NCBI GenBank assembly: GCA_020072965.1
Contig: JAIQFY010000058.1
Span: 1 to 32,030, forward strand
DNA from: Terriglobia bacterium
Lineage (GTDB): Bacteria; Acidobacteriota; Terriglobia; JAIQFV01
Length of the DNA: 32,030 nucleotides
Reading direction: 5' to 3'
Part shown: piece after piece, positions 7,177 through 21,459 of the stretch
Position numbering within the stretch: the first letter of the stretch is position 1
Layout of the letters: every line of letters starts with the position of its first letter
Program-made: the position numbers and the translations under genes
Notes under the pieces: generated by a model
The model's database searches: none
The model's input: the letters and a program-made list of their open reading frames with translations, nothing else
What the model was told of the DNA's origin: nothing

Positions 7177-7222
7177 TTTGGCGTCCTCGACGGGATTTGA
7201 ACCCGTGTTACCGCCGTGAAAG
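7177..7222. repeat. left attachment site: tRNA-Glu 3' fragment
   Basis: Forty-six bases identical to 14325-14370. In minus-strand sense they contain the anticodon loop and the 3' arm of the anticodon stem, the variable and T arms, the 3' acceptor strand and CCA of tRNA-Glu. Identity stops exactly at the 5' edge of the anticodon loop, and no 5' half follows, so this is not a functional tRNA. The decamer AAAGATTTGG also recurs just outside both copies (7163-7172 and 14320-14329), offset by 8 bases, so the original homology may have extended slightly further. Confidence 0.93.
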
Positions 7223-7512: not shown

Positions 7513-8022
7513 TCACGGGGCACGCCAGATGACACTCCCCTTCTTGTCGTTGCTAAACATGACAATTGAAGCGGCAGAAGTTTCCTGGCTCGCGCCCGTG
7601 CGCGTGTTGACCAGAGCCGTGTACCCCAAATCCATCCTAAATCCTTGCACGTTCCTGAGCCTGATGAGGGGCGACCCATCTGACTCGACACCCATCTGCA
7701 AGTAACCTGCCATTTTCTTGTCGCTGAGTTCTAAATGGGATTGCCCATCCGGGGAGATGCCCATCTGCGCACCCAGATGATCTTGTGCGTCGTAGAATCG
7801 GAGTAGCGGACCGCTCGGCCCTGCGTCCATCGTCATCCGCACTTTCCCTGAGCTGTCAAGTACGTGAAATTCATGGGCAGTGATCGTCTGAGCAACGGGC
7901 TGCGTTGCGGCTATAGTGCCCAGGGCTGCTATCAGCACGAGCGCGGCAATGACAAGGCGTTTCAACCGCCGATAGTCACGCTCTAGGCGTTCCAGCCGTC
8001 CGGCAAGTTCTGTCTCAGTCAT
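7513..8022 (-). CDS. membrane-anchored protein with repeated beta motifs, unknown function (cargo)
   Basis: A 169-residue protein: a charged helical start (about 1-21), one transmembrane segment (about 23-40, VIAALVLIAALGTIAA) and an exported domain. That domain contains imperfect repeats of the form F-x-V-x-D-x-x-G-K-x-R, as in EFHVLDSSGKVRMTM, then LRFYDAQDHLGAQMG and LELSDKKMAGYLQMG. Similar anchored, repeat-containing proteins of unknown function are, as I recall, frequent in soil Acidobacteria. GGAGGG lies 7 bases before the ATG. It follows the SLH-domain gene by 42 bases on the same strand, so the two are probably cotranscribed. It sits at the left end of the element with no obvious role in mobility, so I class it as cargo. 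Confidence 0.72.
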   Translation of the reverse strand: MTETELAGRLERLERDYRRLKRLVIAALVLIAALGTIAATQPVAQTITAHEFHVLDSSGKVRMTMDAGPSGPLLRFYDAQDHLGAQMGISPDGQSHLELSDKKMAGYLQMGVESDGSPLIRLRNVQGFRMDLGYTALVNTRTGASQETSAASIVMFSNDKKGSVIWRAP

Positions 8023-8064
8023 AACTCATCCCTCCGCGGTTGAAAGGCTAAAACCCCTCCAAGA

Positions 8065-8904
8065 TTAATGCCATTGAAGACCTAGCCCCCTGGATAAAAA
8101 GATCGCCATTTGTCCGCGGGTGACAGGTGCGTCCGGGCAGAACAACGGCGGATTGGCGCTACAGCCTGCGGTGAGCCCTGAAGCCTTGAGCGCCTCAATC
8201 CACTGGAACCATGGGTGGGTAGTTGGAACATCATCGAAACTCGCCGCTAAGGGGGGCGCACTGACTTGGAGGACATAACCAATGATCACACCCCCAAACT
8301 TCTCCGACCCGTCGAGCAGACTTGGTGATGCAAATATAATAAAGCGGGTTGTGTAATTGTCGACGACGAGGTTCTCAGCACTCAGATCTATTGATACGAC
8401 TCCGATGTTGGGGCTAGCTTCAGGGACAGTCGAGCAAATGAAGCCCTGCGAACATGCGGGGTTTGTAGTCGGGTGGAACGAACAACTTACGCCAGTCCAG
8501 TCGCATTTAGTGAGGCTAGCAGACACCTGACCCAAAGTTGAGTTGTCAATATAGTCCAACTCCATGTAAATGATCTTCGCGCCACTTGGGAGGTAAATCG
8601 GGGCGTACAGCCCACTGCCGCCGCCGGTCACCCAGCGCATACCTCGATCATCGGTGGAATACGTCGAATTGTTTGGTTGGGTGGTAGAAGAGGGGAAAAA
8701 GGCCATTGCCGGGACCATATAGTAAGACACTTGCAATCCCCCATATGTTTGAGGGGGGTCTGGCCTTGTCGGACTTATCGCCTGTGCAGTTGATTGCAGT
8801 GCGGTATTTGGAACCTGAATGGCATTCTGCGCCATCATGGATTCCACCATTGACACCATCGAAATCAGCAACGTAAGAAACAGCACACTCATTACCCTTT
8901 TCAT
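8065..8904 (-). CDS. secreted protein with C-terminal SLH-like domain (cargo)
   Basis: A 279-residue exported protein. A signal peptide (MKRVMSVLFLTLLISMVSMV) is followed by a unique beta-rich region of about 190 residues and a C-terminal S-layer-homology-like module at about 222-277 (SFDDVPTTHPWFQWIEALKA, then PVTRGQMAIFLSRGL). SLH modules tether proteins to cell-wall polymers, but in these secreted proteins a single copy often occurs. The open frame extends to 8970. The ATG at 8904 is preferred because GGAGG (8913-8917) lies 8 bases before it and a signal peptide begins there. A tentative weak promoter, TTGACG at 9060-9065, lies upstream. Confidence 0.78.
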   Translation of the reverse strand: MKRVMSVLFLTLLISMVSMVESMMAQNAIQVPNTALQSTAQAISPTRPDPPQTYGGLQVSYYMVPAMAFFPSSTTQPNNSTYSTDDRGMRWVTGGGSGLYAPIYLPSGAKIIYMELDYIDNSTLGQVSASLTKCDWTGVSCSFHPTTNPACSQGFICSTVPEASPNIGVVSIDLSAENLVVDNYTTRFIIFASPSLLDGSEKFGGVIIGYVLQVSAPPLAASFDDVPTTHPWFQWIEALKASGLTAGCSANPPLFCPDAPVTRGQMAIFLSRGLGLQWH

Positions 8905-9219
8905 ATTACTTACCTCCAATGGATTGAGGGAACTACGAAGAAAACCGATACTCTGTGGAGAAGCCGACATTCAGCTGTCGATGGGATAATGGGCGGCCTA
9001 AAGCGGGGAAAATTTGAAGAGCCTAGTGGTCAGAATCTGTACCTTGAAAAGATTGAGTGCGTCAAATGACTTGCGAATGCTACCCCAAGAATGCTATCCC
9101 TTAAGACTATGTAACTTCTATCACAAATAAGATCAGAGTACAAGGATCGAAGAGTCTTTCACAATAGGAGAATAACGCGCACAAGTACTTCAACGTCCTG
9201 CATCAGGCGATTTGACTTC

Positions 9220-9789
9220 CTAATCATGCCCCTTCGGTTGCCTCACATGCTTGCGGCAGAGGTAGAGCCTTCCCTCTGGATGCCCTGGAAGATAAGCAGT
9301 GGCGCTCTCCGGCAGCTCTTCCCACTCGTGGAGAGGCGGGTTGCCGATAGTAATAAGTCTCATTTCAATCACCTTGTCTAGGCCGCGCCTCTTGACCTCA
9401 GCCTCCAACTCGGCATCGCTGAATCCACCAAGGCCGCCGCTTTCGGCATTCTTTATCACCAGCGCAAAAATGCCGCCCAATGTCTCGCGGCTCTCGCGGA
9501 TCGCTTGAAGAGCAAGACGCCCGTCATCGGCTTCCAAGGCGCTATCCAAGATTGACTGTGTATGCTGGCAGAGGGATTCCAAGCGTCCAAGAATCGAATT
9601 TCCGATGGATGTTTCCCGCTTCTCACTGGCCTTGACGAGGGCTTGGCTCGTGTGGGTTTTGTGCCGAAGCAGGGCCGCCGGAGATATCGAAACACGTTTC
9701 GCTATGTTTCGTAATGGCTCGCCCAACACAATGGCTTCCTCAATCGCGGTACGATTCGGGCTGGAACAAGCAAGGCAGGTTCTTGGCAT
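9220..9789 (-). CDS. phage-type HTH protein with N-terminal CxxC
   Basis: A 189-residue protein whose first 50 residues contain Cys5-x-x-Cys8 and a helix-turn-helix-like stretch (about 25-43, RNIAKRVSISPAALLRHKTH) followed by a long charged helical region. Proteins with this start, a CxxC and then a segment ending in RRHK/LRHK, are common near terminase genes in phages and prophages as I recall; a terminase-small-subunit-like role is possible but unproven. The frame opens with a GTG at 9819, but the ATG at 9789 has an AAGGGGA site upstream and begins the conserved part. It follows the zinc-finger gene at 9854 on the same strand. Confidence 0.6.
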   Translation of the reverse strand: MPRTCLACSSPNRTAIEEAIVLGEPLRNIAKRVSISPAALLRHKTHTSQALVKASEKRETSIGNSILGRLESLCQHTQSILDSALEADDGRLALQAIRESRETLGGIFALVIKNAESGGLGGFSDAELEAEVKRRGLDKVIEMRLITIGNPPLHEWEELPESATAYLPGHPEGRLYLCRKHVRQPKGHD

Positions 9790-9853
9790 AATTTTCAGTC
9801 CCCTTCCAGCGGTATCCACAGTACGATGTTTGGGATTCCTTTACACTTTGATG

Positions 9854-10438
9854 TCACAGGTCAATCTCCACGAATCTGTCGAAAGCGTCAGTGAGCCCAC
9901 CTTGACTTATCACCGACTTGATCATACGCTCTCGCGGCTCAGGGCCGGAGAGCAGTTCCCGCACGTCCGCCACTGAGGCGCTTTCGAGAATAGTCAACTC
10001 CGCTAGAATCGCCGGGCGCTCCTGGTACACCGTGCTCAGGGCATCCCAGGCTTCCGCGCTGTCTGGTCCTAGCAGATGAGCCGTGGCTTCCATATCACCG
10101 AGGGCATGGAGAAGGTTCAAAAGGTCAATGCGCTGGGCTTGGACGCGCTTGTATAAGACTCGGGCCGCACAGTCGGCCTGCTCATATCCTTGGCGAAGCT
10201 CGCGGTACTCCGCCGAAGTGAGGCGGTGGGCAAGCCCTTGCTCGCGGGCAAGCTTCACTGCCCCGCCCGAGAAGCCGCACCCTTGGCCGTGGCAGTAGTA
10301 AACGCCTTTCGATTCGTCGAAGGCAACGGACCGCCGGCGCTTGCATACCGGACAGTCGGCTCGGTTGCGTCCCCGAATCTTCGCGCCCGCCTGTTCTAAG
10401 AGGTTCACTAGGTCATGTTGAAGCACCGTGGCGATCAT
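9854..10438 (-). CDS. primase-type zinc-finger protein
   Basis: A 194-residue protein. Cys29-Pro-Val-Cys32, then VAFDESKGVYYCHGQGC with Cys49 and Cys54, reproduces the zinc-ribbon of DnaG/CHC2 primases, in which the ribbon recognises template DNA. The rest is helical and there is no TOPRIM or polymerase domain, so on its own it is not a full primase. The ATG at 10438 overlaps the stop of the upstream 100-aa gene as ATGA, and GAGGG precedes it by 5 bases, which settles the start against an upstream ATG at 10483. With the upstream AAA ATPase it probably serves replication initiation of the element. Confidence 0.72.
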   Translation of the reverse strand: MIATVLQHDLVNLLEQAGAKIRGRNRADCPVCKRRRSVAFDESKGVYYCHGQGCGFSGGAVKLAREQGLAHRLTSAEYRELRQGYEQADCAARVLYKRVQAQRIDLLNLLHALGDMEATAHLLGPDSAEAWDALSTVYQERPAILAELTILESASVADVRELLSGPEPRERMIKSVISQGGLTDAFDRFVEIDL

Positions 10439-10737
10439 TGCACCCTCGCAGGGACATGCCCACTTCCACAACAGATGGCGCATAGACCGGGCTGCAAATC
10501 CAAAGCGACGCCCACGTCACACACCACGCACCCGCAACGTCCCGCACCCGAGCAGTGCCAGCATACCGCACCCGGCTCCCACCATTGAGGAGATTGGGGG
10601 CAAAGCGCCGGGGCGGTCTCGACCAGTCTCGTGCCAGTCTCACCACTCTGATGGGGCTGAGACTGGGCCGCGACCACGCCGTGCCTTCGCAATACCATGA
10701 TTGCCAACGACTTGATGTCGGTGCTCATCTTCGCCAT
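10435..10737 (-). CDS. small DnaJ-type zinc-finger protein
   Basis: A 100-residue protein with seven to eight cysteines in its C-terminal half. Cys59-x-x-Cys62-S-G-A-G and Cys86-x-x-Cys89-C-G-S-G both fit the CxxCxGxG zinc-binding repeat of DnaJ, and Cys68, Cys70 and Cys73 lie between. Its TGA overlaps the ATG of the primase-like gene (10435-10438), which argues strongly that it is translated. The N-terminal start is uncertain: the ATG at 10737 has a GGAG only one base away, while ATG 10728 has better spacing. Function unknown; DNA or protein binding within the replication module is inferred. Confidence 0.6.
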   Translation of the reverse strand: MAKMSTDIKSLAIMVLRRHGVVAAQSQPHQSGETGTRLVETAPALCPQSPQWWEPGAVCWHCSGAGRCGCVVCDVGVALDLQPGLCAICCGSGHVPARVQ

Positions 10738-10762
10738 ACTCCGAATCTCATAGGCTCACACC

Positions 10763-11785
10763 TCAAGGGTTTGAGACGTGAGACTCTGAGTCACGGTACT
10801 TCTTTCGGTACCTAAATGCAGTCGCTCGGCTTAGACCAAGTTCTTCCTTCACCCCAATCACATCGCACCCTTCCGCGAATAACGCCGCCGCCTTTTGATA
10901 CCCCGAAGCCTCAATACTTCGCATTAGCCATTGACGGATCCCATCCGTATCAGGTCGAAGCTCAATCTCGAACGGTTCGGCTCCCTCCCCATGAAAGTGC
11001 CGTGTCTTCTCGAAGTGCAACTCAGCTCGAAGCCCTTCGCTGGGTTGATAATTCGCTGGATGGCGCAAGGCGATTACTGTATCGAGCAAATCTTCACGTT
11101 TTGATGTTCCACGCGGATTGCCACTTCTTCCGCTGTGGTGCACGAAGAGCACGCTCTTCCCTTGCCGCCGTAAGTCTAGTGCCCATGCTTGAAGCGGAAG
11201 CCAGCTCTCGGCATCGTTCTCGTTGCCTGCTCTGACCAAAGACGTGAGGTTGTCGAGGATCACCAATTCTGCCGACTGAACATGTTCCAGAAGAGCTGCC
11301 TGGCCTTCGAGGGTAGCCAGGTCTCGGATGCCGAATTCCTGCAAATCTGGCGTGATAATGCTGACGTTGTCGCAGACCTCATCTGCCCCGAGCGCTGCGA
11401 CCGCTTCGGCGGTCCACACCTGAAGTAGGCTAGCGGGAAGCTCGCCGTCAATGAAGAGGACTCTCCGGGGTTTTGGCGCTTTCCATCGCAGGAAGTCCCT
11501 GCCGCTGGCCACCGCGATCGCGATGCCAAGGGCTAGATGGGTCTTTCCAGCACCTCGCTTCGCATGGATCATTGCCAAGCCTTGAACGGGCAGGATTGGG
11601 TCCAACAGCATTTCGCGTGGCTTGATGTCCATGGCGAGAAACTCGCCAGCCTTGACCGCCCGAAGGTGATGCTGCACTACAGCCGGGTTTGCCGGGACCT
11701 CATGTGCCAGCGCCGGGTTCGACTGAAATTGCGCTCGGAAATCGCGCAACTGCCGGGGTTCCCATTCATGGTCTTTGCCGTTCAT
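10763..11785 (-). CDS. RepA-type AAA/RecA-fold ATPase (replication)
   Basis: A 340-residue P-loop ATPase. It has Walker A AKRGAGKT at 75-82, FIDGEL at about 111-116, Walker B LVILDNL at 174-180 (Asp178), and the motif VLFVHHSGRSG at about 212-222, which fits the RepA/AAA_25 group of hexameric helicase-like ATPases. The C-terminal 50 residues (GVKEELGLSRATAFRYRKKY) form a second element resembling a helix-turn-helix. The GTG at 11794 is open, but ATG 11785 with AGGTGG five bases upstream is preferred. It lies 12 bases after the excisionase-like gene and 25 bases before the DnaJ-type gene, so the operon joins regulation and replication. Confidence 0.82.
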   Translation of the reverse strand: MNGKDHEWEPRQLRDFRAQFQSNPALAHEVPANPAVVQHHLRAVKAGEFLAMDIKPREMLLDPILPVQGLAMIHAKRGAGKTHLALGIAIAVASGRDFLRWKAPKPRRVLFIDGELPASLLQVWTAEAVAALGADEVCDNVSIITPDLQEFGIRDLATLEGQAALLEHVQSAELVILDNLTSLVRAGNENDAESWLPLQAWALDLRRQGKSVLFVHHSGRSGNPRGTSKREDLLDTVIALRHPANYQPSEGLRAELHFEKTRHFHGEGAEPFEIELRPDTDGIRQWLMRSIEASGYQKAAALFAEGCDVIGVKEELGLSRATAFRYRKKYRDSESHVSNP

Positions 11786-11797
11786 TCCTTCCACCTT

Positions 11798-11983
11798 TCA
11801 GAACCCACGCGCCAGGATGCGCTCGACTTCCCGTTTGGGCACCATTACCGAGCACCCAAAACGCACGGTTTTTATTTTTCCGGCACGGACGGCTCTGTGC
11901 AGAGTCCGGTACGTCTTCCCTGTCCGCTGCGACAGTTCGCGCAGCGACTCGAACTCTCTCTCCAATACTAATTTGCCTTGCAT
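11798..11983 (-). CDS. excisionase-like helix-turn-helix protein
   Basis: A 61-residue protein that is almost entirely a winged-helix DNA-binding domain: LRELSQRTGKTYRTLHRAVR, then AGKIKTVRFGCSVMVPKREVERIL. This is the MerR-like excisionase/AlpA layout, in which a recognition helix is followed by a wing and a helix. The frame is open to a TTG at 12019, but the ATG at 11983 has GGAGGT (11993-11998) nine bases upstream. Proteins of this class bend attachment-site DNA for excision or activate operons of integrated elements. Its position in the replication operon, not beside the integrase, suggests a regulatory function too. Confidence 0.75.
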   Translation of the reverse strand: MQGKLVLEREFESLRELSQRTGKTYRTLHRAVRAGKIKTVRFGCSVMVPKREVERILARGF

Positions 11984-12112
11984 TGCCCTAATACCTCCGT
12001 CGTGGAAATTTTCACGCAAGAACGGTCAAACGGTACGCGAGGCGGAAACGCTTGTCTATGATGGCTGTTCAACAGGTTGTTGCCGGAATTCTGTTAATAT
12101 GGGGGGATTAGT

Positions 12113-12865
12113 TCAGAAGATGGGGATTCCTGCGCGTTTCGCGACTTCCATCAGAGCCCGCCCATCACGTCTCTTTTCGAGACCTGGCCAATCGCGCAAA
12201 GCGTGGAATAGTTCCAAATAATTGACCGAGCGAGGGCCGCACGTTCTGTGAACGGCTTCTTTGACCCGTGTAGCAAAGCGAAGAAGTTGGACGGAAAGCG
12301 CCCTCGCTTTTCTCTCGCAGTTATTTAGGCCAGCCTCATCTATAGCCACCGATTTAATCGTGTCGCCAGATGCCAGCTTGTCAAAAATATCGAGCATTTT
12401 CCGAATCTCTTCACGTGTGGGTTTATCGCCCGGCTCGCTTCCTTTGTTCCTCGCTTCGTTCGCCAGGTCTGTCAAGAAGTCTTCAGCTTGCTTTATGGCG
12501 GCTTCCTTCGCTTTCTGTTCCTTTGGGTGCATAGGGTAATCCGGGGAACGTCTCTTTCGAGCTTCGGCAATTGCTTCAAAAGCCTTATGTGTCAGCCACT
12601 CAAAGTAATCGGTCTTAGACTGGAATGAGCGAGGCAGCTCTTCCTTCGATTGAGCGCGGCGAACCAGTACTGGCCAGCAGATTCCCGCGACTCGGCCTAA
12701 TCTGTGGTACAAAGCAACTGGGGATTGGGAGGTGCAAAGCAACTTTCCACCTTCATTAGTCTCTTGATAAACTCCTAGCCACTCACCCCTTGAAACAGTC
12801 ACTTTCTTAATCGAGATCCGGTTCTTAAGGTAGAACGCAGCATGTTTCTGCCAAGGCTCGCGCAT
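12113..12865 (-). CDS. hypothetical protein, first gene of the element's minus-strand operon
   Basis: I do not recognise this 250-residue protein. It is charged, mixed alpha/beta at the start (GEWLGVYQETNEGGKLLC), and mostly helical from about residue 75, with Lys/Arg/Glu-rich stretches (EARKRRSPDYPMHPKEQKAK). It has no transmembrane segment and no catalytic motif. GGGAGGTGG directly upstream of the ATG at 12865 is a strong ribosome binding site. It is the first gene after the divergent promoter pair and is followed by a 129-base gap before the excisionase-like gene, so those downstream genes might also have their own promoter. Confidence 0.68.
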   Translation of the reverse strand: MREPWQKHAAFYLKNRISIKKVTVSRGEWLGVYQETNEGGKLLCTSQSPVALYHRLGRVAGICWPVLVRRAQSKEELPRSFQSKTDYFEWLTHKAFEAIAEARKRRSPDYPMHPKEQKAKEAAIKQAEDFLTDLANEARNKGSEPGDKPTREEIRKMLDIFDKLASGDTIKSVAIDEAGLNNCERKARALSVQLLRFATRVKEAVHRTCGPRSVNYLELFHALRDWPGLEKRRDGRALMEVAKRAGIPIF

Positions 12866-12965
12866 ACCACCTCCCGCGTGGTTTCCCGTATTGGAGGGAG
12901 GTCGGCAGGCGGGACGGGATGCACCCGCTCTTCGGGGATCAGCCTAGCCGACCATTTACACGGAC

Positions 12966-12994
12966 ATCCTACATCTTTTCTTTTTGATTGACAA
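12966..12994 (-). promoter_or_regulatory. sigma70-type promoter of the element's minus-strand operon
   Basis: On the minus strand TTGTCA (12989-12994), a 17-base spacer and TAGGAT (12966-12971). Its -35 box overlaps the -35 box of the integrase promoter by five bases, so polymerase can occupy only one at a time. Transcription would start near 12959 and leave a leader of about 94 bases. Confidence 0.5.
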
Positions 12995-13016
12995 CCCCTA
13001 GCGCTTGGGGTATATT
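12988..13016 (+). promoter_or_regulatory. consensus promoter of the integrase operon with palindrome in the spacer
   Basis: TTGACA (12988-12993), 17 bases, TATATT (13011-13016). The spacer is almost wholly a dyad, CCCCTAGCGCTTGGGG (12995-13010; one T-T mismatch per arm around AGCGCT), a probable operator. Transcription should start about at the ATG at 13024, so the message would be leaderless. Confidence 0.75.
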
Positions 13017-13023
13017 GAGAGGC

Positions 13024-13203
13024 ATGAAAAAGAAGCCAAATGAAACACACAATGCCGCCCAGCTTCTTGGGAAACGCGGCGGCATGGCGACACTGAAGAA
13101 GTTCGGACCTAAGCAACTCCGCGAGTGGGGAAAACTCGGGGCCGAACACGGCAAGAAGGGCGGCAGGCCAAAGGCAAGCGGGAAGAAATCTACTCGGGGG
13201 TGA
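13024..13203 (+). CDS. 59-aa basic protein cotranscribed with the integrase
   Basis: MKKKPNETHNAAQLLGKRGG begins a 59-residue, Lys/Arg/Gly-rich protein that continues GKLGAEHGKKGGRPKASGKK. The pattern Leu-Gly-x-x-Gly-Gly...Gly-Lys-Lys-Gly-Gly resembles the KGG-type short proteins found beside phage and plasmid genes; the function is unknown. A TTG at 12988 lies inside the promoter and cannot be the start. Only seven bases separate the -10 box from ATG 13024, so translation is likely leaderless. It stops three bases before the integrase ATG. A DNA-bound regulator or directionality partner is possible. Confidence 0.68.
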   Translation: MKKKPNETHNAAQLLGKRGGMATLKKFGPKQLREWGKLGAEHGKKGGRPKASGKKSTRG

Positions 13204-13206
13204 GCG

Positions 13207-14319
13207 ATGCCAAAACAACGTAAACGAGACGGGGTGTACTGGCGGAAGGATCGCCGGATGTATTGGATTAGCTACGTGGACGCACGCGGCAATCGCCAAC
13301 GAAAACCCGGCGCGGAGAGTTGGGACGAAGCCCGCCATGGGCTTGCAGAAGCACTCGGCAGGGTGAAGGAAGAGGAGAATCTCAAGCCCGGCGAAGTGCT
13401 GACGTGCCGGGATAGCTTCTCAGACATTGCCGACCGATTCCTCGCCTATCAAAAGCCCCGTCTTACTCCGAAAGCCTACAAACGGGATAAAGGGATCGCG
13501 GTTCACCTCAAGGCATTCTTCCCAGGACGGTTGACGGAAATCACCTCTTCTCAAGTATCGGACTACGTGACGGCGCGGCTTGGGAAGGTGAGCAAATCGA
13601 GCGTTCGGAAGGAACTGAACAGCCTCAGGCACCTCTTCCGGCTGGTGTGCGGAGAATGGAAGCTATTGCCTCGTTTCGCGAATCCCTGTCTAGACGTGAC
13701 AGCCCCAAAGGTCCGCGACGAGCGCACGCAACACCTCAGCCCCGATCAATTCCGCCGGCTGTTGGCGGCATCCCCCGCAAACGTCCGGCCCATCTTCGGC
13801 CTGCTGACGGCCACGGGTATGCGTCGGTCAGAGTTGCTGGAGTGCCGATGGAAGTACGTGGACGGAAGCCGGATCCTGCTACCCACGTCCAAGAATGATG
13901 AACCCAAGGAAGTGCATCTCAATGCTTTCGCCTGTAAAGTGCTCGCTTCCCTCCCCCAAGGCGAGCCCGAAGATCTGCTCTTTCCTCATATCAGGCCCGA
14001 AGCGGTGAGCATGGCCTTTCACCGCGTCTGCGAGCAGCTTGGCATTTCGGATATCCGCCTCCACGATCTCAGGCACACTTTCGCGACGTGGCTACGTCAA
14101 CAGGGCATCGAGCTTGACGTAATCGCCAGTCAGTTAGGACACCGTGATCTGAGGATGACGAAGCGGTATGCGCGGATTGCCAGCGTCCAGGTGCAGAAGG
14201 CTGTGAACGGACTCGATTCGGTTCTGGAAGTCGCCCAGGAAGGCCAAACCAGCAACGTTAGTCACCAATTAGTCACCGGGAGCCCCGCGCTACTGGAGGC
14301 AAATTCCACAACTCAATGA
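13207..14319 (+). CDS. int: tyrosine recombinase (phage-type integrase)
   Basis: A 370-residue integrase with every catalytic residue in place: Arg206 (TGMRRSEL), Lys229 (LPTSKN), His286-x-x-Arg289 (RLHDLRHTFATWL), His312 (QLGHRDL) and Tyr321 (TKRYARI). Residues ~1-60 form a small Arg/Lys-rich arm-binding domain (RKRDGVYWRKDRRMYWISYV), and about 70-160 a core-binding SAM-like domain. It catalyses strand exchange between the element and the tRNA-Glu site. The gene follows the 59-aa gene by 3 bases and ends 5 bases before the right attachment core, and its last codons overlap the right GTCACC repeats. Confidence 0.95.
   Translation: MPKQRKRDGVYWRKDRRMYWISYVDARGNRQRKPGAESWDEARHGLAEALGRVKEEENLKPGEVLTCRDSFSDIADRFLAYQKPRLTPKAYKRDKGIAVHLKAFFPGRLTEITSSQVSDYVTARLGKVSKSSVRKELNSLRHLFRLVCGEWKLLPRFANPCLDVTAPKVRDERTQHLSPDQFRRLLAASPANVRPIFGLLTATGMRRSELLECRWKYVDGSRILLPTSKNDEPKEVHLNAFACKVLASLPQGEPEDLLFPHIRPEAVSMAFHRVCEQLGISDIRLHDLRHTFATWLRQQGIELDVIASQLGHRDLRMTKRYARIASVQVQKAVNGLDSVLEVAQEGQTSNVSHQLVTGSPALLEANSTTQ
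14258..14277 (+). repeat. two TTAGTCACC repeats at 11-bp spacing (putative integrase arm sites, right)
   Basis: TTAGTCACC at 14258-14266 and 14269-14277, an 11-base period identical to the left-end array. They lie within the last codons of the integrase gene, 48 bases from the right attachment core. Both element ends therefore carry the same phased motif in the same orientation. Confidence 0.62.
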
Positions 14320-14324
14320 AAAGA

Positions 14325-14370
14325 TTTGGCGTCCTCGACGGGATTTGAACCCGTGTTACCGCCGTGAAAG
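14325..14370. repeat. right attachment site, inside intact tRNA-Glu
   Basis: The 46 bases are identical to 7177-7222 and end at the edge of the anticodon loop, so strand exchange most likely occurs in the anticodon loop and stem, one of the standard integration positions in tRNA genes. Confidence 0.93.
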
Positions 14371-14404
14371 GGCGGTGTCCTAGGCCGGGCTAGACGACGA
14401 GGAC
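14327..14404 (-). tRNA. tRNA-Glu(UUC)
   Basis: On the minus strand the 5' strand GTCCTCG (14398-14404) pairs with CGAGGAC at the 3' end, followed by discriminator G and an encoded CCA (14327-14329). The anticodon stem CCGCC/GGCGG encloses the loop CTTTCAC with anticodon TTC at 14366-14368, and the T arm shows GGTTCAAATCC. It decodes GAA/GAG. The 3' half is supplied by the integrated element; the gene remains intact. Confidence 0.96.
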
Positions 14405-14429
14405 GCGCAGACAATGCAGAATCAGAGTT

Positions 14430-14457
14430 TATATACCGCGGGGCGCGGGATCGTCAA
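14430..14457 (-). promoter_or_regulatory. promoter of tRNA-Glu
   Basis: On the minus strand TTGACG (14452-14457), 16 bases, TATATA (14430-14435), about 26 bases before the 5' end of the tRNA. The spacer is GC-rich. Confidence 0.6.
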
Positions 14458-14510
14458 GCGGAAAGCCGTTTCCGAGAGGTTGTCTCAGGTTCCAATAGGT
14501 CAATAAGAGG

Positions 14511-14533
14511 ATCTGAAATTCGAAATTTCAGAT
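14511..14533. repeat. 10-bp perfect inverted repeat, 3-base centre
   Basis: ATCTGAAATT, CGA, AATTTCAGAT. It lies in the intergenic region behind the tRNA promoter. Similar GAAATT/AATTTC palindromes recur in environmental genomes; no coding function. Confidence 0.6.
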
Positions 14534-14555
14534 TTAAGACAAATCAAAGACGAAC

Positions 14556-14593
14556 CGCAAAGGGCGCTAAGAAGGCGCAAGGGGCGCAAAGAG
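14556..14593 (+). repeat. degenerate CGCAAAGGG tandem units
   Basis: Four imperfect units of 9-11 bases: CGCAAAGGG, CGCTAAGAAGG, CGCAAGGGG and CGCAAAGAG. The same motif recurs at 17701-17726. Such intergenic CGCAAAG strings are, as I recall, widespread in Acidobacteria and similar genomes. Confidence 0.5.
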
Positions 14594-14727
14594 TGTGGGT
14601 AATTCATACAACAATTTTACGAGCCTCCGAGTGGTCGAGGAGCAAGAATTTTCCACCCCGCCACTTTGCCGCCTAAGAAGCTCTTTCAATTCGGATTGGG
14701 GATTAACGCCATCTTGAACAGCTTCCC

Positions 14728-14755
14728 TCCGTGTCGTCCGTGTTCATCGGCGTTC
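14728..14755 (+). repeat. left copy of inverted repeat around the ligase gene
   Basis: TCCGTGTCGTCCGTGTTCAT followed by CGGCGTTC. The minus-strand complement of 16310-16336 is closely similar, with the same TCCGTGTC and GTGTT cores. It overlaps the stop codon of the ligase gene (14744-14746). Confidence 0.45.
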
Positions 14756-16300
14756 GATTTCAAGTTCTCGAAGTTTGTAGCGCTGAAGTTTGCCGGTGGC
14801 TGTCCTCGGAAGGCTGTCCATGAAAACAATCTCCCGGGGGACTTGATAGGAATGAAGCCGATGGGACAAAAACTCTTTGAGCTCAGCGGCGCTGACCTGT
14901 TTATTGTTTTTGAGGACGACGTGGGCGCGTGCGGTGATGAGTCCGCCCCGCTCCACGATCCCAACGACCCCTGTTTCCAGAACAGCCTCGTGCTGGAGCA
15001 ACGCTTCTTCAATCTCAATGGGTGAAACCCACAATCCCTGCACTTTGAAGTGGTCGCTGCTGCGGCCGCAGAAATAAAAATGACCCTTCTTATCGCAACG
15101 GTAGATGTCGCCCGTCCTGACCCAATCCGTCACCGAGGCCGATGAAAACCCGTGCACCGGCGAGTAGTAGGGACCGAGAGTATTTCCCTTGACCCAGAGA
15201 TTCCCCGTGACCCCCGCCTCGACTTCCCTGCCCGATTCGTCGAGGATCCGGATTTCGTACCCCTCGATTGCGGTCCCGCTGGAGCCTGCGCACGCCTCCC
15301 TGAGGCGGTTTGATAGGAACATGTGAAGGGCTTCGGTAGTTCCAATCCCGTCCAGGATCTCAACTCCAAACACCTGCTTCCATTCTTCAAATACGACCGC
15401 AGGCAGGGCCTCCCCCGCAGACACACAAAATCGCAAGGAATCCACTTTAAGATGATCGATGTGGCGGTGATACTCCAGCAGCGCCCGATACACCGCCGGC
15501 ACACCGAAAAACACGGTGGGTGATTCATCGCGCAGAATTCGGGAAATAAGCTCAGGTGTTGGTCTCTCGCTGCACAGGATGGTAGTGGCCCGAGCCCCCA
15601 AAGGGAAAGACAGCGAGTTCCCCAGACCATACGCAAAATAAAGTCGCGAAGATGAAAACGTCCGGTCCTCAGGGGTGAGCTTCAAAACCGACCGGCCATA
15701 GTTCTCAACGGTGTGGCGGATATGAGAATGGGAGTGGACAACCGCCTTGGGCTCGCCCGTCGATCCGGAAGTGAACAAGAAGAAGGCAGGGTCTGCGGGC
15801 GTGGTGGGTTTGACCAGTACCGGGGCCATGGACTCCACTTCATAGGAGAAGGCCGAAATCCAATCGTCACCAGTCGGCAGGTTCGGGGAGGCTCCACATC
15901 CAGCCACAAACACGCGCTCAAGGTGTCTCAAGCGATGACGCAGGGCCTGGAGGCTTTGAAGTGATCCTTCCTCGACGATCGCCATCCGCGCCGCACATAA
16001 ATTCAGGATATGTTCGAGTTCCCTGCCCTCGGCAAACGTGGAAATCAATGCGGGCACAGCGCCAATCTTCATGGCGGCAAGGAAAGTGGCGATGAAGGTC
16101 GGGGAGTCCCGAAGGATCAACGCGAGGCACTGGCGAGGGCCCAATCCGCTGGACTGGAGGAAACGAGCGATCTGGTTTGTTTGAAAAACGAGGTCGCGAT
16201 AAGTGATCGATTGGTTGTTCCATCGAATCGCCGGGCGATCGGCATCTTCCGATTCCGTCAGCGAATCAGGTAACAACCAGTCTGTGGCGTTTTCTAACAT
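14744..16300 (-). CDS. benzoate-CoA-ligase-like AMP-forming ligase
   Basis: A 518-residue ANL-superfamily enzyme that adenylates a carboxylic acid and transfers it to coenzyme A. It has the P-loop-like core TSGSTGEPK at 167-175, the benzoate-ligase-like stretch LYFAYGLGNSLSFPLGA, DGIGTTEALHMFLSNR, the TGD motif (VRTGDIYR) and the catalytic Lys504 in LPRTATGKLQR. The pattern fits the benzoate/4-hydroxybenzoate-CoA ligase family better than acetyl- or long-chain ligases, but no aromatic-degradation gene is nearby, so the true substrate is open. The frame extends to a TTG at 16342; ATG 16300 is chosen, though no clear ribosome binding site precedes it. Confidence 0.82.
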   Translation of the reverse strand: MLENATDWLLPDSLTESEDADRPAIRWNNQSITYRDLVFQTNQIARFLQSSGLGPRQCLALILRDSPTFIATFLAAMKIGAVPALISTFAEGRELEHILNLCAARMAIVEEGSLQSLQALRHRLRHLERVFVAGCGASPNLPTGDDWISAFSYEVESMAPVLVKPTTPADPAFFLFTSGSTGEPKAVVHSHSHIRHTVENYGRSVLKLTPEDRTFSSSRLYFAYGLGNSLSFPLGARATTILCSERPTPELISRILRDESPTVFFGVPAVYRALLEYHRHIDHLKVDSLRFCVSAGEALPAVVFEEWKQVFGVEILDGIGTTEALHMFLSNRLREACAGSSGTAIEGYEIRILDESGREVEAGVTGNLWVKGNTLGPYYSPVHGFSSASVTDWVRTGDIYRCDKKGHFYFCGRSSDHFKVQGLWVSPIEIEEALLQHEAVLETGVVGIVERGGLITARAHVVLKNNKQVSAAELKEFLSHRLHSYQVPREIVFMDSLPRTATGKLQRYKLRELEIERR

Positions 16301-16309
16301 TGATAGTTT

Positions 16310-16336
16310 GGACGCGGACAACACAGGTGACACGGA
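16310..16336 (-). repeat. right copy of inverted repeat around the ligase gene
   Basis: The complement reads TCCGTGTCACCTGTGTTGTC followed by CGCGTCC, related to 14728-14755 but in inverted orientation. It occupies the leader before the ligase ATG. It may be a remnant of the dispersed GTGTTCATCGG-type repeat found in many environmental bacteria. Confidence 0.4.
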
Positions 16337-16354
16337 TTTCAATTGCTACCGTAG

Positions 16355-17635
16355 TCATTCGACGATTTCTGCGGCGACCGTCTCAACCTGAAGCATTCTA
16401 CGATCGTCCAGGACCCCTTCCCAACGGGCGACCACGGCCGTGGCGACGCAATTGCCGGTCACATTCACCGCCGTGCGTCCCATGTCGAGAATCTGGTCGA
16501 TCCCCAGCAATAAGGCAATCCCTTCCATGGGCAAATTGAAGCTTGCAACCGTTCCTGCCAGGACGACCAATGACGCCCGTGGCACGCCCGCCACTCCCTT
16601 CGAGGTGAGCATCAAAGTGAGCATCATCACCACCTGCGTTTTAACATCAAGAGGAACCCCGAACACCTGCGCGATAAAGATCGAACTGAGCGAGAGGTAA
16701 AGTGTCGCGCCGTCCAGGTTGAAACTGTACCCAGTCGGCAGGACAAATCCAACGATCTCGCGGGGACAGCCAAAACGTTCCATCGACTCCATCGCGGTGG
16801 GTAGCGCCGCCTCGCTTGAGGCCGTCGTGAAGGCGATGGTGAACGGCTCGCGAATGGCTTTGAAGAGCCGTAGAAACGGGACCCGGATGATAAGGCAAAT
16901 CAAAAAGAGGACTACAAAAACGAAAAAGACCAGGGCTCCGTAGAAACAAATCACCAGGCTGGCATAGCCTTTCAAAACAGAGAGTCCCTTGGCACCCACC
17001 GTCGCGGAAATAGCAGCCATTACGCCCAACGGGGCAAACCGCATCACGAAATCGGTAAACTTGAACATCGTGTCCGCGACGGCGGTCAGAACGGAGACCA
17101 GCGGTTTCCCTTTTTCACCCACCGCCGCCAACCCCAGCCCGAAAAAAATCGAAAAGATCACGAGCTGCAGGATATCGCCCCTTGCCATGGCATCGACGAC
17201 GCTGGTCGGAAATATACTGGTGAGGAAGTCTTTGCCTGAGGGCGATTTCGTTACAGGCGGCGTTTTTCCCTCTGCTGTCGGGGCGGCTACTGCTTGTACG
17301 GTTGCCTGAGCCGGTCTTGAAACGTACTCGCCGGGCTTGAAGACGTTGACGGTCACTAGCCCGATGAGCAAGGCGATCGTGGTGGCAATCTCAAAATAAA
17401 TGAGGGTTTTCAAGCCGATGCGTCCAACCCTTTTGAAGTCACCCGCCCCGGCGATGCCGATGACCAGGGTCGAGAAGATCAAAGGGGCGATGATCATCTT
17501 GATCATGCGCAGGAAGATGTCGGCCATCGGTTTGATGGCAACTCCCCAGTGGGGGGAGATCCATCCCAGGAGGATGCCGGCAGCCAGCCCGATGAGGATC
17601 TGCACGGTCAGAGAGGGCCACAACCGTTTTTTCAT
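16355..17635 (-). CDS. dicarboxylate/amino acid:cation symporter (DAACS family)
   Basis: A 426-residue inner-membrane carrier of the GltP/DctA family that moves glutamate, aspartate or C4-dicarboxylates with H+ or Na+. It shows the serine-rich hairpin TTASSEAALP, the NLDGA equivalent of NMDGT, the GVPRAS loop before transmembrane segment 8, and DMGRTAVNVTGNCVAT carrying the conserved Asp and Asn. Length and hydrophobic pattern are those of a full-length eight-segment transporter. An insertion-like loop rich in Ala/Pro (about 105-135) lies in the region between segments 3 and 4. No strong ribosome binding site is visible. The gap to the adjacent nadK gene holds a CGCAAAG repeat. Confidence 0.9.
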   Translation of the reverse strand: MKKRLWPSLTVQILIGLAAGILLGWISPHWGVAIKPMADIFLRMIKMIIAPLIFSTLVIGIAGAGDFKRVGRIGLKTLIYFEIATTIALLIGLVTVNVFKPGEYVSRPAQATVQAVAAPTAEGKTPPVTKSPSGKDFLTSIFPTSVVDAMARGDILQLVIFSIFFGLGLAAVGEKGKPLVSVLTAVADTMFKFTDFVMRFAPLGVMAAISATVGAKGLSVLKGYASLVICFYGALVFFVFVVLFLICLIIRVPFLRLFKAIREPFTIAFTTASSEAALPTAMESMERFGCPREIVGFVLPTGYSFNLDGATLYLSLSSIFIAQVFGVPLDVKTQVVMMLTLMLTSKGVAGVPRASLVVLAGTVASFNLPMEGIALLLGIDQILDMGRTAVNVTGNCVATAVVARWEGVLDDRRMLQVETVAAEIVE

Positions 17636-17700
17636 GAAAGGGTAAATCCCGGTATGAAATCAGTCAGGTAGATCAATGAAGACTTCACCATGATGATGAC

Positions 17701-17726
17701 CGCAAAGGCGCGGAGTGCGCAGAGAA
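17701..17726 (+). repeat. second CGCAAAG-type repeat
   Basis: CGCAAAGG, CGCGGAGTG and CGCAGAGAA in tandem, related to 14556-14593. It sits directly behind the nadK stop. Confidence 0.4.
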
Positions 17727-17731
17727 TTCAA

Positions 17732-18595
17732 CTAGCGCTCGCCCCACTTCAGTTTCTCTCGAAGCACATCGAAGTAGCTTTTCTGTCTCGGCTTGACAAG
17801 GATGAGGTGTCGGTTGGATTTGCGCGCAATGACAAAATCATGCTCGCGCAAGGCGAGACCGACTTGACCATCCATCGTCAGGAAGGTCGATTCTCCTCCC
17901 CGGCCAATCTCGACGCGAATTACCGACCGGTCCGGGATCACGATGGGCCGGTTGGTCAGGGTGTGAGGGCAAATGGGGGTAATGACAAACGCCTCCATGG
18001 TGGGAAAAATAATCGGGCCTCCCGCGGCCAAAGAATACGCTGTGGACCCCGTGGGCGTAGAGATGATCAACCCATCCGCCTTGTACTCTGACAACAACTG
18101 GTTGTCGACCTTGACCGAGAAGTCGATGATGCGCGCCATCGCTCCTTTGTTAATGACGGCATCATTCAGCGCCTGGTGGCGCGAAATTGTCTCCCCCGAA
18201 CGCATGACTTCCACATCCAGAAGAATGCGGGAGTCCGTGCTGTGCTGATTCGCGAAAACCAGCTCCAGGGTTGGAAAGAGCTCCTCCAGAGTCATTTCGG
18301 TTAGAAATCCGAGGTGGCCGAAATTCACGCCCAGGATGGGGACTTCTCTCTCATTCATAACACGCGCCACCGCGAGCATGGTCCCGTCGCCCCCCAGCAC
18401 GATAATCAAATCCACCTTCGCCGGGATCTCATTGCGCCCTACGCCTTCATTGCATCGATCCAACAACTCACAGGTTTCGTGGTCGAACAGGATGGATACC
18501 TTGCGCCGCTCGAGCCATTCGACCAACTGCCGAATGACGGCGGCGATTTCCTTCTTGCGAGGCTTGGTGATGATCCCGACGGATTGAATTTGCAT
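17732..18595 (-). CDS. nadK: NAD kinase
   Basis: A 287-residue NAD+ kinase that phosphorylates NAD+ to NADP+. It has the GGDGT motif at 68-72, NFGHLGFLTE at 91-100, the Asn-Asp pair LNDAV at 143-147, and the DGLIISTPTGSTAYSLAAGG segment at 174-193 that binds NAD. The length is typical of bacterial enzymes. The ATG at 18595 follows the tlyA stop by 7 bases, so nadK is cotranscribed with tlyA, a common arrangement. It is the last gene of the series that begins at trpC. Confidence 0.95.
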   Translation of the reverse strand: MQIQSVGIITKPRKKEIAAVIRQLVEWLERRKVSILFDHETCELLDRCNEGVGRNEIPAKVDLIIVLGGDGTMLAVARVMNEREVPILGVNFGHLGFLTEMTLEELFPTLELVFANQHSTDSRILLDVEVMRSGETISRHQALNDAVINKGAMARIIDFSVKVDNQLLSEYKADGLIISTPTGSTAYSLAAGGPIIFPTMEAFVITPICPHTLTNRPIVIPDRSVIRVEIGRGGESTFLTMDGQVGLALREHDFVIARKSNRHLILVKPRQKSYFDVLREKLKWGER

Positions 18596-18602
18596 GGTGT
18601 GC

Positions 18603-19337
18603 CTAGACTCGAGGCCGCAACCACAGGAAAAACTCCTTGTTCCCTTCGGCTCCGGTGATGGGCGATTCTACGCTACCTTTGACTTCGAATCCATACCTGT
18701 TCGCCGTATCGCTCACCTTCGCGACCGCCTGGGTGTGCAGTGCCGGATCGCGGACGATGCCTCCCTTACCAACCTGCCCCTTGCCGACCTCGAATTGGGG
18801 TTTGACCAGCAGCAGCAGATCGGTGGAGGGCCGGCAAAACGGAGGGAGGACGGGAATAATCAATTCCAGGGAAATAAATGAAACGTCAACGACGATCAAA
18901 TCGACCCGGGTTCCGATGTCCGCGAACTTGAGGTACCGGGCATTTGTGTTTTCGAGCGAGACCACCCGCGAATCGCGGCGCAACTTCCAGTCCAGTTGAT
19001 TCGTCCCCACATCCAAGGCAATGACTCCCACGGCGCCGCGTTGCAACAAACAGTCGGTGAAGCCGCCGGTCGAAGCGCCGATGTCAAGGCACAACCGTCC
19101 CTCGGGACTGATCGAGAAATGATCCAACGCCGCTTCGAGCTTCAGGCCTCCGCGACCCACATATTTCATGGGGGCGCCTTTGAGCCGAACAGGCGAATCG
19201 ACGGGAATCCGTTCGCCGGCTTTTTCGATGCACCTTCCCTCAACCAACACTTGCCCCGCCAGAATCAGGGCCTGGGCCTTCTCGCGCGATTCCGCGAGTC
19301 CAAGTTCGACGAGAAGTTTGTCGATTCGTTGTTTCAT
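18603..19337 (-). CDS. tlyA: TlyA family rRNA 2'-O-methyltransferase/hemolysin
   Basis: A 244-residue protein: an N-terminal S4 RNA-binding domain (RIDKLLVELGLAESREKAQA, about 4-60) joined to a Rossmann-type methyltransferase. The S-adenosylmethionine site is CLDIGASTGGFTDCLLQ at about 83-99, then the VDVSFISLELI and LLVKPQFEVGKG segments. TlyA methylates ribosomal RNA in mycobacteria; the family is also annotated as hemolysin. It lies in the conserved gene string dxs-tlyA-nadK. The 196-base gap to dxs contains a 7-bp inverted repeat (CGGCGGA at 19405-19411, TCCGCCG at 19428-19434) with no U-tract, so I do not call it a terminator. Confidence 0.92.
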   Translation of the reverse strand: MKQRIDKLLVELGLAESREKAQALILAGQVLVEGRCIEKAGERIPVDSPVRLKGAPMKYVGRGGLKLEAALDHFSISPEGRLCLDIGASTGGFTDCLLQRGAVGVIALDVGTNQLDWKLRRDSRVVSLENTNARYLKFADIGTRVDLIVVDVSFISLELIIPVLPPFCRPSTDLLLLVKPQFEVGKGQVGKGGIVRDPALHTQAVAKVSDTANRYGFEVKGSVESPITGAEGNKEFFLWLRPRV

Positions 19338-19533
19338 GGAACTGCTTTAAAGACCCGTAATCTGGAAGGCGGGAGATGGATTCAAGAGATATGGAAAGGG
19401 TGCCCGGCGGAAAACAAAAACCAAGTGTCCGCCGCCTGGCCATGGATCGGACCCAAGGAGTTGTCCTGCCAGGTCCGGGTCACTCCGTGGGGCGTCTATG
19501 CCGGGGTGTGCTCATGTGACGATTTCAGGATTG

Positions 19534-21459
19534 CTACAGTTTGGAGCCCAGTCGATGGCGCTTGGTGGCGTGAATGCCTTCTTCGGTCACAAACGATTTG
19601 ATTCGCTCGAAAATGCCGTCAGCATCCAGGCCAAACTTGGCATACAACAAATTGGGAGCGCCCTGCGGGATGACCCGGTCAGGAACCCCAATCCGCAACA
19701 TGCGGACGGGGAGCAGTTTTCGTTCGACAAACAACTCGGTCACGGCGCTGCCGAAACCACCCATCAACGCGGCGTCTTCCACGGTGACGAGGCATTTCTT
19801 TTCATTGGCAAGGACGCAATATAATTCCTCATCCAGGGGTTTGGCCCAGCGCGCATTGATGATTGTGCAGTGGATTCCCTGCTCTTCGAGCTTCCGGGCG
19901 GCCTGCAGCACGGCCGACATGATATGGCCGTAGCCGATGATGGCCACGTCTCCCTGGTCCTGGAGAATCTCCGCCTTTCCGATTTCCAACGCACGCAAGG
20001 GTTCATCGAGCGAAGCTCCCACCCCGCTGCCGCGGGGATAGCGGACCGCCGTCGGATGAGGAATTTCGATCGCCGTGTAAATCATCTGGCGTAACTCCGC
20101 TTCGTCTTTGGGCGCCATGAGCATCATATTGGGAAGCGTGCGCAGGTACGCGATATCAAACAACCCATGATGCGTCGGCCCGTCCGCGCCTACAATCCCG
20201 GCTCGATCCATGGCCAGGGTGATGGGCAGGTCCATCAGGCAGATGTCGTGGTAGATCTGGTCGTAGCCCCGCTGCAGAAAGGTCGAGTAGATAGCGCAGA
20301 CGGGCTTCATCCCCTGAGTTGCTAATCCACAAGCAAATGTCAGCGCGTGCTGCTCGGCGATTCCGACGTCAAAGCAGCGGTCCGGGAAGTGTTCCTTGAA
20401 CTTCTCAAGGCCGGTGCCCTCGAGCATGGCTGCCGTGACGGCAACCACCTTGGGATCGTGCTCGGCGATTTCGATGAGTGTCTTGCTGAAAACCGAGGTG
20501 TACGTGGGGGGGCCTCCCACGGACTTCTTCATCTCTCCTGTTTCAGGGTCAAATGGGGTTACTCCGTGGTACTTGTCCTGGGAGCTCTCGGCTGGCGGGT
20601 AACCTTTCCCCTTCTTGGTCACGACGTGAAGGATGGTCGGCGTTTCGTTGTTCTTTATGTTCTGCAGCGTTTCCACCAGCGTCGGGATACTGTGCCCGTT
20701 AATCGGACCGACGTAATCGAAACCCAACTCGTGAAACATAAGCCCGGGCACCATGAAGGTCTTCATGGCATCAACTGTATCTTTGACGAGCCGAAAAATG
20801 CGCGGGCCGATATGCGGCACGGAGGAAACCATTCTTTCCACTTCTTTCTTGAATCGCATGTAGGTTTGTCCCTGGACAATGCGGTTCAAGTATCCGGGGA
20901 TCGCGCCGATATTGGGAGAGATCGACATCTCGTTATCGTTTATAACAATCAACATCCTTCTCTTCAGGTAGCCTGCCTGATTGAGTCCTTCCAGCGCCAC
21001 TCCCCCGGTCAGTCCCCCGTCCCCAATGATGGCAACCACATAGTTGTTCTCCTTTTTTAAATCTCGCGCTACGGCCATTCCCAGGGCGGCAGAAATTGAA
21101 GTCGAGGCGTGCGCCACATTGTATTCGTCGAATTCACTCTCCTGGCGCATGGGGAAACCAGAAATTCCCTGGTACTGACGGAGCGTGTCAAACCGGTCAC
21201 GACGCCCGGTCAATATCTTGTGACCATAGGCTTGGTGCCCGACGTCCCAAACCAGCTTGTCATGAGGTGCGTCGAATACATAATGCAGCGCCAGGGTGAG
21301 TTCGACGGTCCCGAGGCTGGCTCCCAGATGCCCGCCTACTTTCGAGACCACATCAACCATGAAATGACGTAACTCTTCTGCCACGACTTCCAGTTCAGCC
21401 AACGAAAGTTTTTTTAAATCAGCGGGTGAGTTTATCTTTGTAAGATATTGATATTCCAT
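19534..21459 (-). CDS. dxs: 1-deoxy-D-xylulose-5-phosphate synthase
   Basis: A 641-residue enzyme that condenses pyruvate and glyceraldehyde-3-phosphate, the first step of the MEP route to isoprenoids. Seen: His44 in GGHLGASLG, His75 in WDVGHQAYGH, the thiamine diphosphate motif GDGGLTGG from 146 with Asn174/Asn176, and the catalytic Glu369 in VGIAEQHALTFACG. The C-terminal transketolase domain is complete. Its neighbour ispA consumes the pathway's products. The start is supported by GGAAGA about 10 bases upstream; the gap to ispA is 73 bases. Confidence 0.96.
   Translation of the reverse strand: MEYQYLTKINSPADLKKLSLAELEVVAEELRHFMVDVVSKVGGHLGASLGTVELTLALHYVFDAPHDKLVWDVGHQAYGHKILTGRRDRFDTLRQYQGISGFPMRQESEFDEYNVAHASTSISAALGMAVARDLKKENNYVVAIIGDGGLTGGVALEGLNQAGYLKRRMLIVINDNEMSISPNIGAIPGYLNRIVQGQTYMRFKKEVERMVSSVPHIGPRIFRLVKDTVDAMKTFMVPGLMFHELGFDYVGPINGHSIPTLVETLQNIKNNETPTILHVVTKKGKGYPPAESSQDKYHGVTPFDPETGEMKKSVGGPPTYTSVFSKTLIEIAEHDPKVVAVTAAMLEGTGLEKFKEHFPDRCFDVGIAEQHALTFACGLATQGMKPVCAIYSTFLQRGYDQIYHDICLMDLPITLAMDRAGIVGADGPTHHGLFDIAYLRTLPNMMLMAPKDEAELRQMIYTAIEIPHPTAVRYPRGSGVGASLDEPLRALEIGKAEILQDQGDVAIIGYGHIMSAVLQAARKLEEQGIHCTIINARWAKPLDEELYCVLANEKKCLVTVEDAALMGGFGSAVTELFVERKLLPVRMLRIGVPDRVIPQGAPNLLYAKFGLDADGIFERIKSFVTEEGIHATKRHRLGSKL

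Follow-up and report, generated by a model that had tools for sequence, protein, structure and literature searches.

Small integrative elements that lack a repressor of the phage type are common, and how they are controlled is for the most part obscure. In the immunity cassettes of lambdoid phages (cI/OR), the specificities of regulator and operator change together and are block-replaced between otherwise similar elements, and the divergent promoters overlap. Small DNA-binding proteins encoded near int, such as P4 Vis/AlpA and 186 Apl, can control int or early promoters; P4 Vis is a repressor of integrase or early promoters. Apl of phage 186 serves as an excisionase as well as a regulator, and excisionase sites are direct repeats with a spacing of one helix turn (PMC7498355). 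The int-alpA RNA (RF02996), which Rfam classes as an sRNA, was found to be named in just one open paper, in passing. In the Hin/Gin serine invertases, a GGRP arm that precedes the HTH contacts the minor groove.

The locus examined here lies in an integrative element of 7148 bp in an acidobacterial genome, bounded by 46-bp repeats, within the 32,030-nt stretch of DNA that was analysed (the window). As in the lambdoid cassettes, its divergent promoters overlap. As in CI/Cro-type switches, operator dyads are found within them, one in the window and two in three relatives. In contrast to those systems, no HTH repressor gene stands beside the operator; the candidate regulator is a KGG/GGRP protein of ~45-78 aa with no HTH match, whose gene lies directly 5' of the integrase on the same strand. 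It resembles Vis and Apl in being a small protein encoded near int that is predicted to bind DNA, but these are HTH proteins, and Apl-type sites are direct repeats whereas the site here is a dyad. The GGRPK motif recalls the Hin/Gin arm through a weak profile match that is limited to this short motif, and no HTH follows it in the small protein. A structured RNA is divergent from the integrase operon and has an excisionase-like gene downstream, as expected for int-alpA, but here it appears to form a 5' leader, and a covarying hairpin around the Shine-Dalgarno (SD) sequence and a start codon come next. By the tests made, the cassette belongs to none of the CI/Cro, MerR, and AlpA/Xis types and most likely works like an immunity-type repressor-operator pair.

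Our preferred reading, to which we assign a probability of about 0.72, is that the dyad would be the operator of a 59-aa protein acting as autorepressor of the integrase operon, and that this cassette is exchanged as a unit. A gene of ~60 codons before int, together with natural swaps, would provide a testable rule for which elements repress one another, and the pairing of small gene and operator offers a way to annotate unnamed small genes.

Overlapping divergent promoters and their dyad

The features of the element are as follows.

7177-7222: left attachment repeat of 46 bp, with the same sequence as 14325-14370
9854-10483, minus: CHC2 zinc-ribbon, primase-like protein (weak match)
10763-11794, minus: AAA_25 ATPase, replication-type gene of the left operon
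11798-12019, minus: HTH_17 excisionase-like protein
12113-12865, minus: protein of 250 aa that falls in no recognised family; its gene is the first to follow the int-alpA leader
12866-12882, minus: hairpin ACCAC-GCGGGAG-GTGGT, which would sequester the SD just 5' of the ATG at 12865
12885-12954, minus: int-alpA RNA (RF02996), predicted 5' leader of the leftward operon, 36.6 bits
12966-12971, minus: leftward -10 box TAGGAT, with transcription predicted to start at ~12959
12989-12994, minus: -35 box TTGTCA of the leftward promoter, overlapping the plus-strand -35 box at 12989-12993, 17-bp spacer
12988-12993, plus: -35 box TTGACA of the rightward (59-aa protein/integrase) promoter, a position that recurs in related loci
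12994-13010, plus: spacer of the rightward promoter, 17 bp
12995-13010: operator-like dyad CCCCTAGCGCTTGGGG, 7/8 pairs with a T/T mismatch, centre 13002.5
13011-13016, plus: -10 box TATATT of the rightward promoter
13024-13203, plus: basic protein of 59 aa that contains GKRGG and GGRPK motifs; proposed to repress the operon in which it is encoded
13207-14319, plus: tyrosine integrase (PF00589), predicted to share a transcript with the 59-aa gene
14325-14370: right attachment repeat, 46 bp, overlapping tRNA-Glu (14327-14404, minus)

Position and sigma70 scoring confirm both promoters of the first-pass annotation, TTGACA-17-TATATT (plus) and TTGTCA-17-TAGGAT (minus). The five -35 bases that it assigned to both (12989-12993) are indeed common to them, the 16-bp dyad fills the plus-strand spacer as described, and the arrangement as a whole, an overlap of divergent promoters with an operator-like dyad on the integrase side, is supported. 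The rightward promoter scores 11/12 and is the best sigma70 match within 8000-20000. The leftward promoter, at 9/12, is unremarkable alone; nine sites of at least 9/12 occur in 12 kb versus 5.2 ± 2.4 expected. It is predicted to drive the int-alpA leader of an operon with excisionase-like and replication-type genes, and the overlap suggests that use of the two promoters would be mutually exclusive. The first reading missed the int-alpA RNA on the leftward side, and also that the rightward -10 box ends 7 nt 5' of the ATG of the 59-aa gene. The rightward mRNA is predicted to be leaderless, with a start at 13023-13024, and because of this GAGAGG, the apparent ribosome site in the window, probably lies outside the transcript.

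The dyad gives p = 0.003 upon letter shuffling of the 26-nt promoter core, but 28 dyads of equal score occur in the 32-kb window (~1 per kb). By itself it is compatible with chance, and its meaning therefore had to come from relatives; judged from sequence, it is beyond chance through its position and its recurrence in related elements. A role as an RNA hairpin or terminator was rejected since the dyad lies upstream of both predicted transcript starts. Activation of the MerR type, in which the dyad occupies an over-long spacer of 19-20 bp, was likewise rejected, the spacer being 17 bp here and 16-18 bp in most relatives.

The observation that the element lacks a CI/Cro-type HTH repressor holds: profile searches gave no HTH family match for either the 59-aa or the 250-aa protein. 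The 59-aa protein has no Pfam, PHROG, or NCBIfam family match. Its resemblance to KGG (PF10685) was seen by eye, the Pfam profile matching neither the window protein nor 14 relatives. Its predicted structure is one long helix of low confidence (pLDDT 69), which gives no structural argument for a DNA-binding dimer, and a PDB sequence search returned weak motif matches only, among them a weak profile match to DNA invertase.

A family of small genes with spacer dyads

At E ≤ 0.001, 58 of the 399 genomes examined in the class encode homologues of the 59-aa protein; the weaker matches may have just the GGRP motif in common. The homologues are nearly all from Acidobacteriota, as are all 17 loci with homologues in the named genome collection, and their genes mostly lie immediately 5' of a recombinase gene. 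In ~37 of 45 loci, a tyrosine integrase is directly 3' of the small gene; in G336 (L074), the same cassette, with a spacer-dyad promoter, precedes a serine recombinase. No homologue was found among phage and plasmid records, two viral contigs matching only in the GKLGAEHGKKGGRP motif within other proteins, and no description of the protein was found in the literature. The small proteins (~45-78 aa) are best read as an undescribed family. In L055, two GGRP small genes precede a serine recombinase; their products have Cys-containing N-termini, and ACCTAgcatTAGGT is an example of the dyads there.

The mRNAs of relatives are also predicted to be leaderless because in most of them just 6-7 nt separate the end of the -10 box from the start codon. 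A leaderless-type promoter (at least 8/12 at that distance) is present at 32 of 43 small genes versus 4 of 335 control genes from the same contigs (Fisher 1e-32). These counts are not fully independent, the loci being related; control starts are longest-ORF ATGs, some perhaps misassigned, and small-gene starts were set by a homology model, and for a few of them the promoter was taken into account as well.

The search of related elements for the dyad, which the first-pass annotation had offered as a check, shows that equivalent dyads recur at the same promoter position with different letters. In the interval -32 to -7, dyads reach p ≤ 0.05 in 17 of 44 loci and p ≤ 0.01 in 12 of 44 (letter shuffles), whereas in the control interval -74 to -48 none of 43 loci has a dyad exceeding letter shuffles. 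Spacer dyads are found at 13 of 43 small-gene loci versus 3 of 335 controls (p = 4e-11), and those of relatives fill the spacer, abutting or overlapping the -10 box. Particular dyads go with particular proteins: CCTAAACnGTTTAGG-like dyads with 'GKRSY..IREIARENGKKGGRP' proteins, AACCTAACGTTAGGTT with 'GRRSA..KWG..MREWGKLGGRP' proteins, and CCCTACGCAGGG, CCTACTGGTAGG, CCCGCCTGCGGG, and AACTTGCnnnGCAAGTT with other small proteins. L046, L093, and L094 have an additional operator-like copy upstream of the small gene, close to where the transcript starts; in L046, about two helical turns separate it from the first copy. Loci inspected later mostly conform: in L148, L149, L152, and L154, a -35/-10 pair ends six nt before the ATG, and two of these loci carry the perfect dyads ACCAAACGTTTGGT and TTTACCCAACGTTGGGTAAA. 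The dyad is weak or absent in several loci (L005, L010, L019, and L036).

An int-alpA RNA as predicted leader of the left operon

Just downstream of the leftward promoter, positions 12885-12954 of the minus strand match RF02996 with 36.6 bits, above the gathering threshold of 35.8. At E ≤ 0.001, 28 of the 399 genomes contain the RNA, and in six loci (the window, G125, G485, G285, G147, and G083) it divergently adjoins the small gene. Pairing between the second loop of the RNA and its 3' tail has a mean run of 5.4 versus 4.2 ± 0.17 for permuted tails; in the window this pseudoknot is UCCCGU/ACGGGA. An SD and start codon directly follow the RNA in most of 30 acidobacterial loci, and in 19 loci an exact hairpin surrounds the SD, with compensatory changes (ATCGC/GCGAT, TCGG/CCGA, ACCAC/GTGGT, CCCAC/GTGGG, and GCCAC/GTGGC). 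Loci with the int-alpA and SD pattern include the window (12866-12954, minus), L064, L080, and L096-L125. The pseudoknot, the adjacent SD and start codon, and the covarying SD hairpin suggest that int-alpA acts in cis as a translational leader. Since the leftward promoter would first make this leader, the left arm would have a second, RNA-level control.

Co-variation, cassette exchange, and the proposed mechanism

Three candidates for the regulator had been put forward: the 59-aa protein, the excisionase-like protein, and the 250-aa protein. Operator distance tracks small-protein distance (Mantel r = 0.65, p = 0.0005, n = 32; rank version 0.63), which favors the first. It does not track the distance of the HTH_17 excisionase (r = 0.04, p = 0.34, n = 27), and this protein was rejected as the regulator for that reason. 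The 250-aa protein was also rejected, having no homologue in the other related elements examined. The most likely candidate for the 'missing' repressor is the 59-aa protein.

The main alternative explanation of the co-variation is physical linkage, in which an operator and its neighboring gene travel jointly. The integrase argues against this, as it is equally close and shows no correlation with the operator (r = 0.04). In the pair G147/G003, the integrases are 88% identical and the upstream int-alpA regions 75% identical, whereas the stretch from about -49 to +126, comprising promoter, operator, and the N-terminal portion of the small protein, shows no relation, and the small proteins are 29% identical. 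Conversely, G125 and G237 have only -36 to +146 in common, containing the operator and small gene, and their integrases are 35% identical. As read from these alignments, operator and putative regulator are replaced together, as in phage immunity cassettes.

The proposed mechanism builds on the anatomy of the locus, its conserved arrangement, the co-variation, and the cassette exchange. The 59-aa protein, with a KGG-like helical region followed by a GGRPK arm, would be made with the integrase from a strong leaderless promoter. Probably as a dimer, it would bind the dyad between the -35 and -10 boxes and occlude RNA polymerase, a mode proposed because the operator sits between near-consensus boxes of normal spacing; these boxes and normal-length spacers lead us to infer repression rather than activation. 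Given the gene order, the result would be negative autoregulation that keeps integrase low. Operator and protein would form a specificity cassette, swapped between elements as one unit, which may also block a second element carrying the same operator (immunity). Immunity would predict different operators in co-resident elements; for the few cases available, operator distance within genomes averages 0.56 versus 0.51 overall. The opposed promoter, with its overlapping -35 box, would drive the int-alpA leader and then the excisionase-like and replication-type genes.

The 59-aa protein might also have a dual role, repressing the integrase and activating the int-alpA/replication operon from an OR2-like site, as lambda CI does. 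From the dyad centre (13002.5) to the predicted leftward start, which lies downstream of it, is 43.5 bp; by sequence inspection the G285 locus (L125) has about the same distance and G485 ~40, and the promoters overlap in several loci bearing int-alpA. However, in the int-alpA loci L064 and L080, the leftward -35 box falls inside the dyad region, so that both promoters would be repressed, and an adjacent int-alpA RNA is not detectable in most dyad loci. That the divergent promoter is activated in this way is a possibility, though a speculative one. Equally tentative is its extension to the whole family as the CI analogues of small integrative elements in Acidobacteriota that repress their own leaderless int operon and activate the int-alpA promoter, with cassettes setting incompatibility or immunity groups among tyrosine- and serine-recombinase elements.

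It is unlikely that the dyad is bound by the HTH_17 protein (11798-12019) for repression of the kind that P4 Vis/AlpA or 186 Apl exert on integrase or early promoters. Such a protein is encoded near 27 related loci, and Apl provides a precedent for a dual excisionase and regulator, but the lack of co-variation noted above speaks against it, as does the form of excisionase sites, which according to PMC7498355 are direct repeats spaced by one helix turn, whereas the site here is a single dyad.

A host regulator or nucleoid protein acting at the dyad would be compatible with the window taken alone, but is very improbable: operator letters vary among elements, co-resident ones included, and track the small protein. 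A host regulon was rejected because CCCCTAGCGCTTGGGG occurs just once in the 5.9-Mb genome when ≤1 mismatch is allowed. That the dyad is a functionless chance palindrome, as the 28 equal-score dyads might allow, is just as improbable given that many loci have a dyad at this position of the promoter and that the dyad co-varies with the small protein.

The genome that carries the element also contains CCCCACGCGCGTGGGG palindromes in 61-bp spaced arrays (G000:C2:37898-38279 and G000:C56:11300-11864), apparently unrelated to the element. At L056 (G095), the integrase is split over several frames, 25-1557 nt downstream of the small gene start, and this apparently decayed element still keeps the operator CCTACTGGTAGG.
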